This document shows positions 3,123 through 7,201 of a stretch of DNA of 14,476 nucleotides, piece after piece. Made by a program: the position numbers and the translations under genes. This stretch comes from Rhodospirillaceae bacterium. GTDB lineage: Bacteria > Pseudomonadota > Alphaproteobacteria > UBA9219. The stretch lies in the NCBI GenBank assembly GCA_003486725.1, contig DNGD01000142.1:1-14476 (forward strand), given 5' to 3'. How positions within the stretch are numbered: the first letter of the stretch is position 1; each line of letters begins with the position of its first letter. The notes below the pieces were generated by a model. The model had not been told where the DNA came from. It did no database searches and saw only the letters and a list, made by a program, of their open reading frames with translations.

Positions 3123-3851
3123 ATGGAACCGCAACCAGTTGTTGATGCCGTTAATTTGGCCGGATCAGTTGCCCCTCTCGATATGTCGCTTTTGGGGCTT
3201 TTTGGCCACTCGGATCTTGTTGGCAAGGCCGTCATTCTCGGCCTTCTTTTTATCTCCATTTTCACATGGGCTTTGATCTTCGACAAAATCTCGAAAATCT
3301 CGCGGCTTAAAAATCGCGCCGAGTTCTTCGAGGAACGCTTCTGGTCAGCCGGTTCGCTCGACATGCTTTATGAAAAGATCAAGCGCCCCGCCGATCCCAT
3401 GCAGGCCGTTTTCGTCGCCGGCATGAAGGAATGGCGCAACGCGAATGACAAGGGCCTTTTGGCCACGCCGCAGGGCCGCACCAGCATTCAAAACCGCATC
3501 GACCGCGTGCTGCAAGTCACCATTGGCCGCGAGATGGCGCTGATCGAAACATGGATGACCTTTTTGGCATCGGTTAGTTCGGTCGCGCCGTTTATCGGTC
3601 TGTTCGGCACCGTTTGGGGCATCATGCGCAGCTTCATCGGCATCGCGCAGGCGCAAAACACGTCGCTCTCCGTCGTTGCCCCCGGTATTGCCGAGGCGCT
3701 TTTGGCCACGGCCATCGGCCTTGTCGCCGCCATCCCCGCCACGGCTGCGTACAACAAGTTTTCGACGGAAATTGGCCGCTATGGCGCACGCCTTGAAAAC
3801 TTTTCGAACGACTTTATGGCGACCCTGTCACGCAACATGGAAGAACACTAA
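3123..3851 (+). CDS. tolQ: Tol-Pal system proton channel subunit TolQ
   Basis: TolQ is an inner-membrane MotA/ExbB/TolQ-family protein. With TolR it forms the proton-driven motor that powers Tol-Pal envelope constriction at division. The 242-residue product has three predicted membrane segments (about 33-55, 143-166 and 183-206). It also has the family signature PFIGLFGTVWGIM (156-168) and PGIAEALLATAIGLVAAIPA in the third segment. ATG 3123 is preferred over ATG 3093 because AAGGAG lies 10 nt upstream and the resulting length fits TolQ. It shares one base with tolR (TAATG). Confidence 0.95.
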   Translation: MEPQPVVDAVNLAGSVAPLDMSLLGLFGHSDLVGKAVILGLLFISIFTWALIFDKISKISRLKNRAEFFEERFWSAGSLDMLYEKIKRPADPMQAVFVAGMKEWRNANDKGLLATPQGRTSIQNRIDRVLQVTIGREMALIETWMTFLASVSSVAPFIGLFGTVWGIMRSFIGIAQAQNTSLSVVAPGIAEALLATAIGLVAAIPATAAYNKFSTEIGRYGARLENFSNDFMATLSRNMEEH

Positions 3852-4318
3852 TGGCTGGCGGAACAATGCAATCCGGTGGCGGAGCGCGGCGCGGTCGGCG
3901 CGGCGGCTATCGCCCCATGGCAGACATCAACGTCACGCCGCTTGTCGACGTGATGCTCGTTCTGCTCATCGTCTTTATGGTGACGGCACCGCTGCTGACG
4001 GTGGCCGTTCCCGTTGACCTTCCCAAGGCGCAAGCGCAATCGATCCGTCAGGATAAGGAGCCTTTGGTGATCTCCGTCGACTCGCGCGGCGGCGTTTTCC
4101 TTCAGGAATCGAAATCCGAACTGCCCGATCTGGTCGCCAAATTGAAAGCCATCACAGGTACGAACCCCGATGCCCGCATCTTTGTGCGCGGCGACAAGGG
4201 CGTTCCCTATGGCCGCATCATGGAAGTGATGGGCACCATCAACGCCGCGGGTTACACCAAGGTCGCTTTGGTCGCCGAATTGCCAACGCCGGAGCCCACG
4301 AGAGGGAAGAAGAAATGA
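3851..4318 (+). CDS. tolR: Tol-Pal system protein TolR
   Basis: TolR is an ExbD/TolR-family inner-membrane protein that plugs the TolQ channel and couples proton flow to TolA. The 155-residue protein has a short Arg/Gly-rich cytoplasmic N-terminus and one membrane segment (about 31-51) starting with NVTPLVDVMLVLLIVFMV; Asp33 matches the conserved protonatable Asp. A periplasmic domain includes ISVDSRGGVFLQ and ARIFVRGDKGVPYGRIMEVM. The TGA stop is 5 nt before a heptamer repeat array. tolA, tolB and pal, which normally follow, are absent from the window. Confidence 0.95.
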   Translation: MAGGTMQSGGGARRGRRGGYRPMADINVTPLVDVMLVLLIVFMVTAPLLTVAVPVDLPKAQAQSIRQDKEPLVISVDSRGGVFLQESKSELPDLVAKLKAITGTNPDARIFVRGDKGVPYGRIMEVMGTINAAGYTKVALVAELPTPEPTRGKKK

Positions 4319-4323
4319 AGTAC

Positions 4324-4353
4324 GGGACTCGGGACTTGGGACTCGGGACTCGG
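4324..4353 (+). repeat. Left GGGACTN heptamer array (inverted end of S23/IVS cassette)
   Basis: Four tandem GGGACTN units (seventh base C, T, C, C) plus a trailing GG start 5 nt after the tolR stop codon. The array matches the reverse complement of 4741-4770 at 28 of 30 positions, so the two form a long inverted repeat around the four-helix gene. The four GGG tracts separated by 4-nt loops fit the canonical intramolecular G-quadruplex pattern on the plus strand, which is the tolR sense strand. Confidence 0.92.
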
Positions 4354-4370
4354 AAAAAAGAGGGGTGATA

Positions 4371-4745
4371 ATGGAAATAGAAAGTCATAAGAACCTCGAT
4401 GTGTGGAAAAAAGCAATCCAATTGGTAACACTTGTTTATTCCGTAACAAAGAAGTTGCCGAAAGAAGAAATGTACGGTTTGACAAGTCAGATGCGAAGAG
4501 CAGCCGTTTCAATACCCTCCAATATCGCTGAAGGAAGGTCAAAGAGAACTACGAAAGAATACATAAGATATGCCAACATTGCTTATGGCTCCGCATCAGA
4601 ACTGGAAACACAGCTAATCATTGCAGGCAATCTTGGTTATCTGGAAGAAGGTGATGTTGCTCGTGCGTTAGCAGAACTCACAGATGTTGCCAAAATGCTT
4701 TATAGGTTGGTTTGTGGCTTAGAAAAGAAGCTAGCAACCCCCTAG
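4371..4745 (+). CDS. Four-helix bundle protein, 23S rRNA IVS (S23) family
   Basis: The 124-residue protein has the family hallmarks: an N-terminal LDVWKKAIQLV helix, GLTSQMRRAAVSIPSNIAEG (residues 36-55), a basic stretch SKRTTKEYIRYA, and GSASELETQL (73-82). This is the family annotated as four helix bundle protein/23S rRNA-intervening sequence protein, related to Avd of diversity-generating retroelements; its biochemical role is not established. ATG 4371 is chosen over GTG 4365 because AGAGGGG lies just upstream. The TAG stop (4743-4745) lies in the right heptamer array. No rRNA, reverse transcriptase or variable repeat is nearby. Lower GC than its neighbours suggests transfer. Confidence 0.9.
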   Translation: MEIESHKNLDVWKKAIQLVTLVYSVTKKLPKEEMYGLTSQMRRAAVSIPSNIAEGRSKRTTKEYIRYANIAYGSASELETQLIIAGNLGYLEEGDVARALAELTDVAKMLYRLVCGLEKKLATP

Positions 4746-4770
4746 TCCCGAGTCCCTAGTCCCGAGTCCC
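4741..4770 (-). repeat. Right heptamer array (inverted copy), adjacent to dapA stop
   Basis: Four NAGTCCC units read on the plus strand (first base T, G, T, G). On the minus strand this is four GGGACTN units, preceded by only 4 nt after the dapA TAA. It pairs with 4324-4353 at 28 of 30 positions. The first unit contains the stop codon of the four-helix gene. The minus strand has at least five GGG tracts with 4-nt spacers, again fitting a G-quadruplex pattern in the dapA sense direction. Confidence 0.92.
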
Positions 4771-4774
4771 TACC

Positions 4775-5686
4775 TTATGCTGCCTCAACCATATCGAGGA
4801 TGGAATTGACCATCGCATCTTTGATGAGCTTCTCGCTGGCCTTGGTGACGGGCACCATAGGCAGGCGCAGCTCGTTCTTGCCTTTGCCGATCAGCGAGGC
4901 GGCATATTTCACCGGCGACGGTGAGGTCTCGATAAACATCACCTCAATCAGCGGCATCAGCCGGTCGTTCATCTTCTGCGCGGTGGCGACATCGCCCGCC
5001 TTCCACGCCGCGTGCATCTTCGCGCACAAAGACGGCGCGATATTCGACACGACCGAGATGCAGCCATGCCCGCCCTGCGCCAGAAACGGCAGCGCGGTAT
5101 CATCATTGCCGGAGAGCTGGATAAACTCCGCGCCGCACAGCTGACGCGTTTTGAACGGACGTCCCAAATCGCCCGTCGCGTCCTTGACGCCGACGATGCG
5201 CGGCAGCGCGGCCAGACGCGCCATGGTGTCGGGGGTCATATTCACGATGCTGCGCCCCGGAATGTTATAGATGAAAATCGGCAGGCCGCTATTGTCGTGG
5301 ATCGCCTTAAAATGCTGGTACAGGCCCTCTTGCGAGGGCTTGTTGTAATAGGGCACGACCTGCAGCGCGCCATCCGCGCCCGCTTTTTCCGCCATTTGCG
5401 TGAGATGCACGGCATGCGCGGTGCTGTTCGATCCGCAACCCGCCATGACGGAAGCCTTGCCTTTCGCGGTTTCAACGCACGCGCGGATCAGCTTGTCCAT
5501 TTCAACTTCGGAAAGCGTCGGCGCCTCGCCCGTGGTGCCACAAGGGACAAACCCGTTGGTGCCCTCATTGATCTGCCACGCCACGAAATCTTGGTACGCC
5601 TTATAATCGACCTCGCCGTTTTTAAACGGTGTGATGAGGGCCGTGAGTGAGCCCGTGAAATTCGGTTGTGTGGTCGATGTCGTCAT
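4775..5686 (-). CDS. dapA: 4-hydroxy-tetrahydrodipicolinate synthase DapA
   Basis: DapA condenses pyruvate with aspartate semialdehyde, the first committed step toward diaminopimelate and lysine, and so supplies peptidoglycan precursors. The 303-residue TIM-barrel protein carries GTTGE (50-54), PYYNKP with Tyr114, YNIPGR with Tyr140 and Arg145, and VGVKDATGD with Schiff-base Lys168, all matching known DapA active-site residues. ATG 5686 is chosen over an upstream start at 5707 because a strong AGGGAGGA lies 7 nt before it and the N-terminus then has normal length. It lies downstream of recF on the same strand, and its stop is 4 nt from the right heptamer array. Confidence 0.97.
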   Translation of the reverse strand: MTTSTTQPNFTGSLTALITPFKNGEVDYKAYQDFVAWQINEGTNGFVPCGTTGEAPTLSEVEMDKLIRACVETAKGKASVMAGCGSNSTAHAVHLTQMAEKAGADGALQVVPYYNKPSQEGLYQHFKAIHDNSGLPIFIYNIPGRSIVNMTPDTMARLAALPRIVGVKDATGDLGRPFKTRQLCGAEFIQLSGNDDTALPFLAQGGHGCISVVSNIAPSLCAKMHAAWKAGDVATAQKMNDRLMPLIEVMFIETSPSPVKYAASLIGKGKNELRLPMVPVTKASEKLIKDAMVNSILDMVEAA

Positions 5687-5708
5687 GAGGGCGTCCTCCC
5701 TGTTCAAT

Positions 5709-5780: not shown

Positions 5781-6962
5781 TCAACCCGAAACTTTGCCCT
5801 TTTCCACGACGTAGCTTTGCGCGTGGGGCAACAATGGTTTGAAGAACGAGGTATCGGTTCCCGTAAACCACGCCTGAACGCGCAAGGACAGGATTTCCTC
5901 AAACAGCGCGGCGCGGCGCAAACTGTCCAGATGCGCCGTGATATCATCCAACAAAAAGAGCGGCGGCATCCCGCGCGTCTGCGCCAAGGTGCGCACATAG
6001 GCGAGCATGATGGCGACAAGCAGCGCCTTTTGCTCGCCGGTCGAACAAAGTTCCGCCGGACAGTGATGCGTACGGTGAATAACGGCCAGATCGCTGCGAT
6101 GGACGCCAATCGCGCAGGTACCGCTTTGCGCATCGTCACCACGTGTGCGAGCCAGTGCCGCGCGCAACTTATCTTCCACCAGCAAGGCGGGTTGGGTGGA
6201 CAGTCCCTCCTCCGTGATGCCGGTGAGAGTCAAATCCGCCTGCGGAAACGCGCTTTGCGTGTCGGCAATGCCCGTTTGCAACTGGCGCAGCAAATGAAGG
6301 CGCGCGGCGGCAATCGCCACGCCCGTTTGCGCCATATCGTCTTCGAGCGCCGAAAGCCACGCCGCATCCGCGACGCCATCGCGCAATAACCGCAACCGCT
6401 CGCGGAGCGCTTTTTCATAACGATGCACGCGCCCTGCATGCGCGGGATCGAAACTATACGCCATGCGATCCAGTAGTTTACGCCGCGCCGAGGGGCCATC
6501 GGCCAGCACGCGATCCATATCCGGCGTGATCCACGCCATCGCGACATGCTCGGCCAAGGTCTGCTGGCTTTTGACGGCGCGACCATCAATATGCACAACG
6601 CGCCGCTCGCCATAGGGCATTTCGGGATCGCGCCCCGTGCCGATCTTGATATCGCCGCGCGGCGTATCAAGCGTCGCCGAAATCGCCCACGGCAGGCTTT
6701 GATGGTGATTTTGCCATTCGGTCGGTGCGGCGCGGCACATGCCGCGTCCGGGCACCAGCAACGAAACGGCCTCAAGGATATTCGTCTTGCCGCTGCCATT
6801 CATGCCCGTCAGCACGACAGGCTCCGGCGCCAACGCCAGCCACAAATCATCATAATTACGGAAATTGGCAAGCGACAGCGTGGTGATGGAGAACGTTGAT
6901 TCAGGTTTGGGGATCAGCGATTCAGAACGCGGGATTCTGGATTCAGAGAGCGCGTTTGTCAT
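5781..6962 (-). CDS. recF: DNA replication and repair protein RecF, repeat-extended N-terminus
   Basis: RecF is an SMC-like ATPase that, with RecO and RecR, helps load RecA at single-strand gaps. Walker A is GMNGSGKT (53-60). Near the C-terminus are the signature-type STGEQKALLVA and Walker B PLFLLDDITAHLD, followed by FTGTD. With ATG 6962, preceded by GGAGGG at 8 nt, the product is 393 residues. That start adds about 25 residues before the usual RecF beginning (here ITTLSLANFRNYDDL). The extension includes two heptapeptides, SESRIPR and SESLIPK, encoded by a 21-bp DNA repeat. No other in-frame ATG, GTG or TTG falls between it and the conserved domain. It follows dnaN, as in many genomes, but is followed by dapA, not gyrB. 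Confidence 0.94.
   Translation of the reverse strand: MTNALSESRIPRSESLIPKPESTFSITTLSLANFRNYDDLWLALAPEPVVLTGMNGSGKTNILEAVSLLVPGRGMCRAAPTEWQNHHQSLPWAISATLDTPRGDIKIGTGRDPEMPYGERRVVHIDGRAVKSQQTLAEHVAMAWITPDMDRVLADGPSARRKLLDRMAYSFDPAHAGRVHRYEKALRERLRLLRDGVADAAWLSALEDDMAQTGVAIAAARLHLLRQLQTGIADTQSAFPQADLTLTGITEEGLSTQPALLVEDKLRAALARTRGDDAQSGTCAIGVHRSDLAVIHRTHHCPAELCSTGEQKALLVAIMLAYVRTLAQTRGMPPLFLLDDITAHLDSLRRAALFEEILSLRVQAWFTGTDTSFFKPLLPHAQSYVVEKGKVSG
6898..6946 (+). repeat. 21-bp tandem repeat encoding the RecF N-terminal extension
   Basis: GATTCAG occurs at 6898, 6919 and 6940, exactly 21 nt apart, with partly conserved sequence between (ATCAG, GGGATTC, GGATTC). On the minus strand each 21-bp period encodes a heptapeptide of the form SES-R/L-IP-R/K in frame with recF. 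GGGATTC units here differ by one base from the GGGACTC units found elsewhere in the window, so the array may be a diverged relative of that family; the relationship is inferred. Confidence 0.7.
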
Positions 6963-6978: not shown

Positions 6979-7140
6979 CGTCTTCCCGCACGAAGTGATG
7001 CGATAGCATCACGTAGATGCGGGATCCAGTTGAAATCTTTTTGTTCAGAAGAAATGTGCTTTGAGGACTTAAAAATAAGCAACTTTCAATCTGGATCCCG
7101 CATCTGCGAATCGCAACGCGATGCTCCGTGCGGGAAGACG
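6979..7140. repeat. REPIN-like inverted pair of hairpins between dnaN and recF
   Basis: Two imperfect palindromes, at 6979-7034 and 7084-7140, are inverted copies of each other around a ~50-nt AT-rich spacer. Each begins or ends with CGTCTTCCCGCACG and GATGCGGGATCCAG, and each folds alone with an outer CCCGCA/TGCGGG stem. The inner stems differ in sequence but both pair: GTGATGC/GCATCAC with a GATA loop in the left copy, ATCGC/GCGAT with an AAC loop in the right copy. This is the organisation of REP doublets (REPINs). No RAYT transposase gene is in the window. It sits in the leader of recF within a dnaN-recF transcript. Confidence 0.8.
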
Positions 7141-7170: not shown

Positions 7171-7201
7171 CCCTAGTCCCCAGTCCCAAGTCCCAAGTCC
7201 C
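7171..7201 (-). repeat. Third GGGACTN heptamer array, abutting the dnaN stop
   Basis: Read on the minus strand, four GGGACTN units (seventh base T, T, G, A) plus a final GGG begin 2 nt after the dnaN TAA. It differs from the right array of the S23/IVS cassette only at the variable seventh base, and both share the CCCCTAGTCCC edge on the plus strand. There is no four-helix gene beside this copy. The minus strand, which is the dnaN sense strand, fits the G3N4 quadruplex pattern with five GGG tracts. Confidence 0.88.

Follow-up and report, generated by a model that had tools for sequence, protein, structure and literature searches.

An S23 gene enclosed by mirrored rows of heptamers was found between tolR and dapA in the window, by which we mean the whole 14,476-nucleotide stretch of Rhodospirillaceae DNA that was analysed. 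Judged from sequence comparison, such S23 genes and the scattered copies of their rows that hold no gene point to a class of bacterial repeat element that has received little recognition. We think it rather probable that they form a REPIN-like system built on an S23 protein of the Avd fold instead of a transposase, of which the window holds a gene-bearing copy, with the S23 protein acting in trans and the rRNA IVSs as a special case.

The element between tolR and dapA

The left array of the element (4,324 to 4,353, + strand), found by repeat search and TRF, is composed of four GGGACTN units and a partial unit. The right array (4,741 to 4,770, - strand), found in the same way, is its inverted copy; the two 30-nt arms are complementary at 28 of 30 positions (93%) and TRF assigned period 7 to both, just as the original prediction had described them. 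It had also described a tight fit between two convergent stop codons, and indeed tolR (3,851 to 4,318, + strand) ends 5 nt before the left array while the last base of dapA (4,775 to 5,707, - strand), at 4,775, stands 4 nt after the right one, both genes being recognised by profiles. The S23/IVP gene itself (4,371 to 4,745, + strand) encodes a protein of 124 aa from ATG 4,371, is also open from GTG 4,365, and has its stop codon TAG (4,743 to 4,745) inside the right array. The GC content is 41% between the arrays and 56.5% in the whole window.

Allowing up to two mismatches, GGGACTNGGGACT has 11 matches in the window against 0.53 expected, a number reached by none of 200 shuffles. A lone GGGACTN array (7,171 to 7,201, - strand; pattern matches and TRF), placed between dnaN and a RecF-like gene, is a dispersed relative of the element ends. 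Close to the 5' end of the RecF-like gene (6,898 to 6,950) there are degenerate GGATTCN-like repeats that resemble the unit of the second S23 element of this genome, described below. Another inverted repeat of the interspersed kind (..CGGGATCCAG.. / ..TCTTCCCGCACGAAG..) was noticed by eye beside GGGACTN arrays, at 6,990 to 7,140 of the window and at 3,500 to 3,740 of locus L038.

No rRNA match was obtained in the window, so that the element, lying between tolR and dapA, is placed outside the rRNA genes in which IVSs are located. In none of the 29 other TolR loci was dapA found beside tolR; the convergent dapA would be a rearrangement at the element.

The S23 protein

The protein family and the fold of the window S23 are secure. 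The ORF matches PF05635 (E 2e-39, 134 bits against a cut-off of 33.8) and TIGR02436 (E 1e-36, 125.5 bits against a cut-off of 24), and the AlphaFold2 model consists of four helices with a pLDDT of 95.3, which agrees with the four-helix bundle that had been predicted. The best Foldseek matches of this model were 2gsc (XCC0516, TMq 0.89) and 2rld, followed by Avd 4dwl (TMq 0.76, E 5.7e-3). Avd, a DGR accessory protein, thus has the same fold (TMq 0.73-0.78 for the Avd structures, among which we take DGR RNP chains such as 8ub7_E to belong), but its identity to the window S23 is only 8-13% and the NCBIfam Avd profile gave E 8e-7, below its cut-off. The likeness of PF05635 to Avd is already in print in the text of PMC10053308, and XCC0516 is a homopentamer according to Lin 2006 as cited in the text of PMC4990558. 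PF05635 is very common, with at least 7,996 candidates scored, all of which matched.

Inverted ends at S23 loci across bacteria

Inverted arrays of period 7 or 8 enclosed 79 of 103 S23 loci and 3 of 581 random placements. This joint test asked for an arm score of at least 14 together with period 7 or 8, and the control had equal geometry placed at random within the same loci; by a cruder control, 23 of 243 other ORFs reached a score of 14. The 103 loci comprise a named set of 79 (79 of the best 80 among the matches listed in a scan of a genome collection ranked by XCC0516 similarity, L126 being dropped as a duplicate of L044), seven plasmid loci (from 7 of the 26 records with a match) and 17 loci of the order (17 of 18 matches, the two of this genome included and L056 dropped as a fragment at a contig end). 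The named set alone gave 58 of 79. Most homologues therefore have the arrays and the inverted symmetry that the original prediction had asked about, with a unit that is mostly of period 7 and mostly other than GGGACTN. Arm-bearing loci were found in Pseudomonadota, Bacteroidota, Bacillota, Planctomycetota, Acidobacteriota, Nitrospirota, Verrucomicrobiota, Cyanobacteriota and candidate phyla.

Among the 24 loci that failed, 18 did so by arm score. Of these 18, L093, L121, L133 and L164 are short of flank on one side (under 150 nt), and L127 reaches a score of 20 if another ORF end is taken. The other six have arms of irregular or other period (L104, with period 9, L113, L161, L045, L047 and L053).

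The mean self-identity of the arms is 0.658 at lag 7 and 0.634 at lag 14, and 0.25-0.29 at other lags except 8 and 16 (0.32 at both); lag 8 was the best in 12 of 85 arms. The inward strand had more G than C in 82 of 86 cases. Eleven loci of the order entered these lag and strand figures unflipped, although they lie on the minus strand; the inward-strand test and the detection of inverted pairs are both symmetric. Of 48 matched arms, 43 were composed of 3-5 units, with a median of 4. These arms are collinear beyond the identity of their units (0.879 against 0.859 for shuffled units, p 7e-4; of the 48, 22 up, 7 down and the rest equal). Some arrays (L035, L036) have their start at the stop codon of the ORF that precedes them.

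On a poorly resolved S23 tree period 8 was clustered (8 changes against a shuffled mean of 11.5, with 1 of 500 shuffles as low), and no clustering was found for period 7 or for 'none' (83 and 345 of 500 shuffles as low). Unit similarity rises weakly with S23 protein identity (Mantel r 0.19, p 0.001), a small effect in which base composition is uncorrected.

One of these elements, L049, lies inside a 23S rRNA gene (LSU match of 2211 bits) and has ends of the same kind. It was the only rRNA location among the 17 loci of the order that were scanned, and at the gathering score none of the 79 named-set loci had an rRNA match. The proposed kinship of the window ends with those of rRNA IVSs gained ground from L049 and from the frequency of array-flanked S23 loci.

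Two other features of S23 loci can be recorded here. Direct repeats common to both flanks (direct score 27-85) were seen in L094, L107, L113, L119, L141, L145, L169 and others, the usual pattern being inverted. In Pseudanabaena galeata a plasmid S23 gene (L169:1504-1863) is annotated between cas6 and cas4.

Gene-less copies in the same genome

In the 1.65 Mb of this genome (G000) there are 48 exact, partly overlapping GGGACTNGGGACT matches and none of the reversed pattern, spread over eight contigs, the window's included. We counted array pairs in these eight contigs (one of them over 20 of its 22.8 kb, which hold all its matches) and in contig C235. Twenty arrays of at least two units gave 7 convergent pairs within 500 bp, again with the window's included, and no divergent and no same-strand pairs at that distance. 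The loops of the convergent pairs measure 21-393 nt, the longest being that of the window. Three of the array pairs of this genome, folded as single-stranded DNA, gave z values of -8.6, -5.7 and -4.4. The seven convergent pairs are inverted hairpin doublets, dispersed extragenically as REPINs are.

Seven loop interiors, two of them from looser pairs and with the 342-nt loop of L038 and the window's own loop left out, showed no kinship (best SW score 11 over 21 comparisons), and the idea of one MITE with a common interior was dropped since the loops compared are unrelated.

Only one other S23 gene was found in this genome, on C235. It is flanked by inverted arrays of GGATTCN, a heptamer other than the GGGACTN of the window, and its neighbours are a zinc-type ABC ATPase and a permease (best AztA/AztB, below cut-off). 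Neither Y1_Tnp nor RVT_1 had a match in this genome, which is 79% complete.

Recurrent sites in the order

We fetched 90 loci (299 kb) through TolR, CarB and TypA, proteins chosen since elements were known beside them, so that the sample is biased and tests the period. There were 26 period-7 arrays and none in shuffled sequence; nine inverted pairs had period 7, none had periods 4-6 or 8-12, and direct pairs were absent. The nine pairs correspond to six loci. Five of them were foreknown (L172, L173, two in L295 and, in L202, that of the S23 element); L174, the first pair of L202 and L321 added three new ones, and one joins two adjacent L202 elements. CarA, CarB, TypA and the LysE-type translocator at these sites were confirmed by profiles; TolA of G027 reached 53.1 of 59.45 bits, just below the cut-off, and the corresponding gene of G025 had no match.

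Before typA, a 120-bp GGGACTN pair stands at the end of the LysE-type gene in G000 and is absent in the close relatives G028 and G029. The aligner placed pieces of native sequence within its loop, but the similarity to the native sequence of G028 and G029 was at shuffle level (322 and 113 of 500 shuffles as high), and the idea of native sequence in the loop was rejected.

The tolR 3' end, a recurrent site in this genus that was compared by eye in 30 loci, carries gene-bearing elements in G000 (GGGACTN) and G028 (GAGTTCA) and gene-less pairs in G029 (GCATTTA), G031 (GGGGTCA type), G030 (decayed GCATTCN) and G005 (GACAGAC type). In G027, of the same genus, the junction is empty, as the original prediction had looked for in relatives; the element is thus not fixed at this locus. 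We also set aside a vertical phylogeny for the S23 genes at tolR, the S23 proteins of G000 and G028 being about 60% identical and their TolR proteins 92%, which leaves fast evolution or replacement. Other gene-less inverted heptamer pairs, with GGAGGCT, GTGTGGA and GACAGAC, were seen at the typA 5' and tolR 3' sites of other genera (L321, L316, L200).

Between carA and carB, in the 28 readable of 30 loci and again by eye, S23 elements are present in G029, G031, G020 and G014 and a remnant in G030, and in G028 and others the two genes are in direct contact. The impression of opposite S23 orientations at this site was wrong, since all four S23 genes point the same way as the operon once the loci are read in the direction of carB; the insertions at tolR and at carA-carB are co-oriented with their operons. 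No clean target-site duplication was seen at typA 5' or carA-carB, where the flanks are much diverged.

Inverted heptamer arrays are found even in frame within CarA, where a linker joins the CPSase and GATase domains, in G028, G029, G030 and G031. In this test 17 of the 30 CarB loci were entered, 14 with a readable linker; the inverted scores of these four were 23, 24, 16 and 15, and those of the other 10 linkers 6-10. The units differ by species, being GGGACTN, GCATTTA, mixed and GGGTTCA, respectively. The in-frame arrays, located at L202:377-469 (G029) and in L203, L204 and L205, recall Rickettsia palindromic elements.

Coupling of the unit with the genome and with the S23 type

In this genus the array unit follows the genome and not the site. 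Among 18 arms from six sites and five genomes, picked and typed by hand and some taken from the right side, the unit similarity (out of 7) was 4.73 for arms of one genome, 3.93 for arms of one site in different genomes and 4.07 for neither (genome excess p 0.0024 by permutation, site excess p 0.75). Since the unit follows the genome, this suggests turnover at fixed sites, by repeated hot-spot insertion or by rewriting.

S23 genes are patchy in the order (11 of 33 genomes). GGGACTNGGGACTNGGG was found in five of the 33, namely G000 and G005, which have a GGGACTN-flanked S23, and G028, G029 and G030, in which no such S23 was found despite their GGGACTN arrays (10, 8 and 8 matches); in G030, at 94% completeness, there was no S23 at all. 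The reversed GGGACTNGGGACTNGGG control had no match in G000 and 15 in seven other genomes of the order; some of the 15, at least, agree with the units of other arrays.

A second comparison used family f48, with 119 genomes, which we would take as Xanthomonadaceae-like from its XCC0516-like proteins. Here GGGAATC arrays are present in 25 of 31 genomes with a close XCC0516-like S23, in 6 of 23 with distant S23 only and in 8 of 65 without a detected S23 (close against none, p 7e-11; any S23 against none, 31/54 and 8/65, p 2e-7). 'Close' here means E up to 1.5e-32, a cut set after the list had been seen, and the genomes are not independent. The reversed pattern occurred in two of the 119 genomes, with one match each. 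Exceptions go both ways, with six close-S23 genomes lacking an exact GGGAATC array and the eight arrayed genomes in which no S23 was detected. As the S23 flanks of f48 often have GGGATTC or GTGATTC, a strict match between the dispersed unit and the S23-flank unit is only partly true.

By eye, several f48 S23 genes have flanking sequence in common, and because of this the S23 gene looks mostly resident, the arrays being what spreads. The original prediction of a mobile cassette by analogy with RAYT/REP thus finds partial support, in the dispersed gene-less convergent pairs and less so in the gene-bearing unit.

Comparison with known systems

The nearest descriptions in print, as far as the texts of the two papers go, are the Coxiella IVS paper (PMC4990558) and the Xanthomonas/Nostoc paper (PMC4692102). 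According to the former, the IVS of Coxiella 23S rRNA has a 28-bp terminal stem processed by RNase III and tandem GACAGAT heptamers upstream of S23p. It shares with the window element the protein family, complementary ends that form a stem of about 28-30 bp (28 of 30 bp paired here) and the size (428 nt against 447 nt). The window element differs in its place between protein genes, in its gene-less genomic copies and in having heptamer arrays at both ends.

REPIN/RAYT systems, as portrayed in PMC3116915, likewise comprise inverted doublets with variable spacers that are dispersed and extragenic, a partner gene beside its own repeat type, and repeat and partner types that co-vary. Their repeats, however, are palindromes with GTAG/CGTC tags (named in the title of PMC3733652), whereas ours are tandem heptamers, and the partner is a Y1 tyrosine transposase, whereas S23 is a four-helix bundle of the Avd fold. 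The anatomy thus matches that of REPIN/RAYT with parts exchanged, heptamers for palindromes and an Avd-fold protein for the transposase. The ORF between the arrays matches PF05635 and not the transposase gene of an IS or MITE, and the reverse transcriptase of a DGR is lacking among the profile matches of this incomplete genome. By the features tested the element is a member of neither REPIN/RAYT, IVS, IS/MITE nor DGR.

Heptamer repeats of other bacteria are also in print. The text of PMC4692102 presents the Xanthomonas GGGAATC and Nostoc GGGGA(C/T)T repeats as G-quadruplex-forming. The GGGAATC arrays are mostly of four units and near the 5' neighbour ORF, and their convergent pairs number 70 in one species and 75 in another, whereas inverted pairs are few in Nostoc; searched for such terms, the main text gave neither S23 nor four-helix. 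In Luteimonas and Dyella (L085, L086) the S23 gene is flanked by GGGAATN units like the Xanthomonas GGGAATC. In Beggiatoaceae, TAACTGA forms intergenic heptamer sets as direct repeats before start codons (PMC4679880, whose main text gave no S23 mention in a term search), and TCAGTTA, its reverse complement, occurs with TCAGTTG in the arms of the S23 locus L149. In no title or abstract start among the matches listed from the open-licence literature, outside which most subscription papers lie, were S23 and dispersed heptamer arrays joined.

Proposed mechanism and alternative explanations

The REPIN-like proposal is built on the inverted ends of period 7 or 8, the convergent gene-less copies, the presence and absence at one site and the unit that follows the genome, and more weakly on the unit that seems to follow the S23 type. 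From these we infer binding, action in trans, a copying step, movement, RNA processing and rewriting. The ends would be short tandem arrays, usually of 3-5 heptamers, with their G-rich strands facing inward. The S23 protein would be the trans-acting partner. It would recognise the unit of its own arrays, as a single strand or as a hairpin, with about one unit per subunit as a guess, and would promote the copying of array-loop-array hairpins to intergenic gaps, to the ends of genes and to linkers that tolerate an insert. As S23 has no known catalytic domain, the copying would probably be done by host replication or repair enzymes. Pairing of the arms may fold the insert out of transcripts, from which it is perhaps cut out as 23S rRNA IVSs are, and insertion into operons would therefore be tolerable.

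We are also tempted, although we hold it unlikely, to suggest that the arrays are written, that is, that an S23-dependent process repeatedly overwrites the arrays throughout the genome, at sites that are fixed, with whatever unit the genome's master element has at the time, in the way that telomere repeats copy the template of telomerase. Such rewriting would explain the presence of GGGACTN, GAGTTCA, GCATTTA and GGGGTCA-type units at corresponding sites of related species, namely the tolR 3' end and the CarA linker, while the sites stay put.

A different reading, to which we give only a small chance, takes the element as a parasite at the RNA level, an IVS living in mRNAs as well as in rRNA, with arms kept paired by RNase III excision and an S23 protein that serves only its own RNA as a chaperone or autoregulator; gene-less pairs would then be deletion derivatives of gene-bearing copies. 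The collinearity of the arms, the 23S rRNA location of L049, the insertions running with the operon at tolR and carA-carB, and the stem, RNase III processing and tandem GACAGAT of the Coxiella IVS in the text of PMC4990558 all argue for it. It leaves unexplained the ends made of period-7 arrays, the unrelated interiors of the seven gene-less loops compared and the unit that follows the genome. Still less probable, in our opinion, is a host regulator, in which a resident RNA-binding S23 would form a TRAP-like ring on arrays in mRNA leaders or ends, the arrays being regulatory sites born of slippage and then kept. The usual 3-5 units per arm, the arrays that start at the stop codon of an upstream ORF and the common flanks of several f48 S23 genes are consistent with this reading, but the inverted pairing of the arrays, the presence or absence of the typA unit (G000 against G028 and G029), the in-frame arrays of the CarA linker and the patchiness of S23 in the order are not.

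It is very improbable that the elements are moved by a known enzyme in trans, be it a Y1/RAYT transposase or a reverse transcriptase of the kind that Avd assists in DGRs, with S23 as its accessory. The Avd fold of S23 and the sub-threshold match to the Avd profile agree with it, and Y1_Tnp or RVT_1 was found in 7 of the 11 S23 genomes of the order against 9 of the 22 without S23 (p 0.28). Four of these 11 (G000, G005, G006 and G031), however, have S23 and neither domain; divergent enzymes could escape and three of the four MAGs are incomplete, but the fourth, G006, has three S23 genes and a listed completeness of 100%. A Y1 or RT enzyme in trans as a general requirement is thus unsupported. 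Finally, the arrays could be ordinary heptamer microsatellites, arising by slippage or G-quadruplex formation, that happen to flank S23, and heptamer repeats are indeed common in some genomes (texts of PMC4692102 and PMC4679880). This coincidence, already disfavoured for the S23 family, would be extremely improbable in view of the joint test (79 of 103 S23 loci, 3 of 581 random placements), of the two different units on the two S23 genes of G000 and of array pairs that are convergent in that genome.

Should the REPIN-like reading be true, it would give a role to PF05635, a very common family of which little is known in terms of function. The rRNA IVSs, the heptamer repeats and the REPIN-like hairpins would be one system, which in many phyla, candidate phyla included, would amount to an analogue of REPIN/RAYT that does without a transposase, and the old question of the function of the IVS protein would become directly testable.
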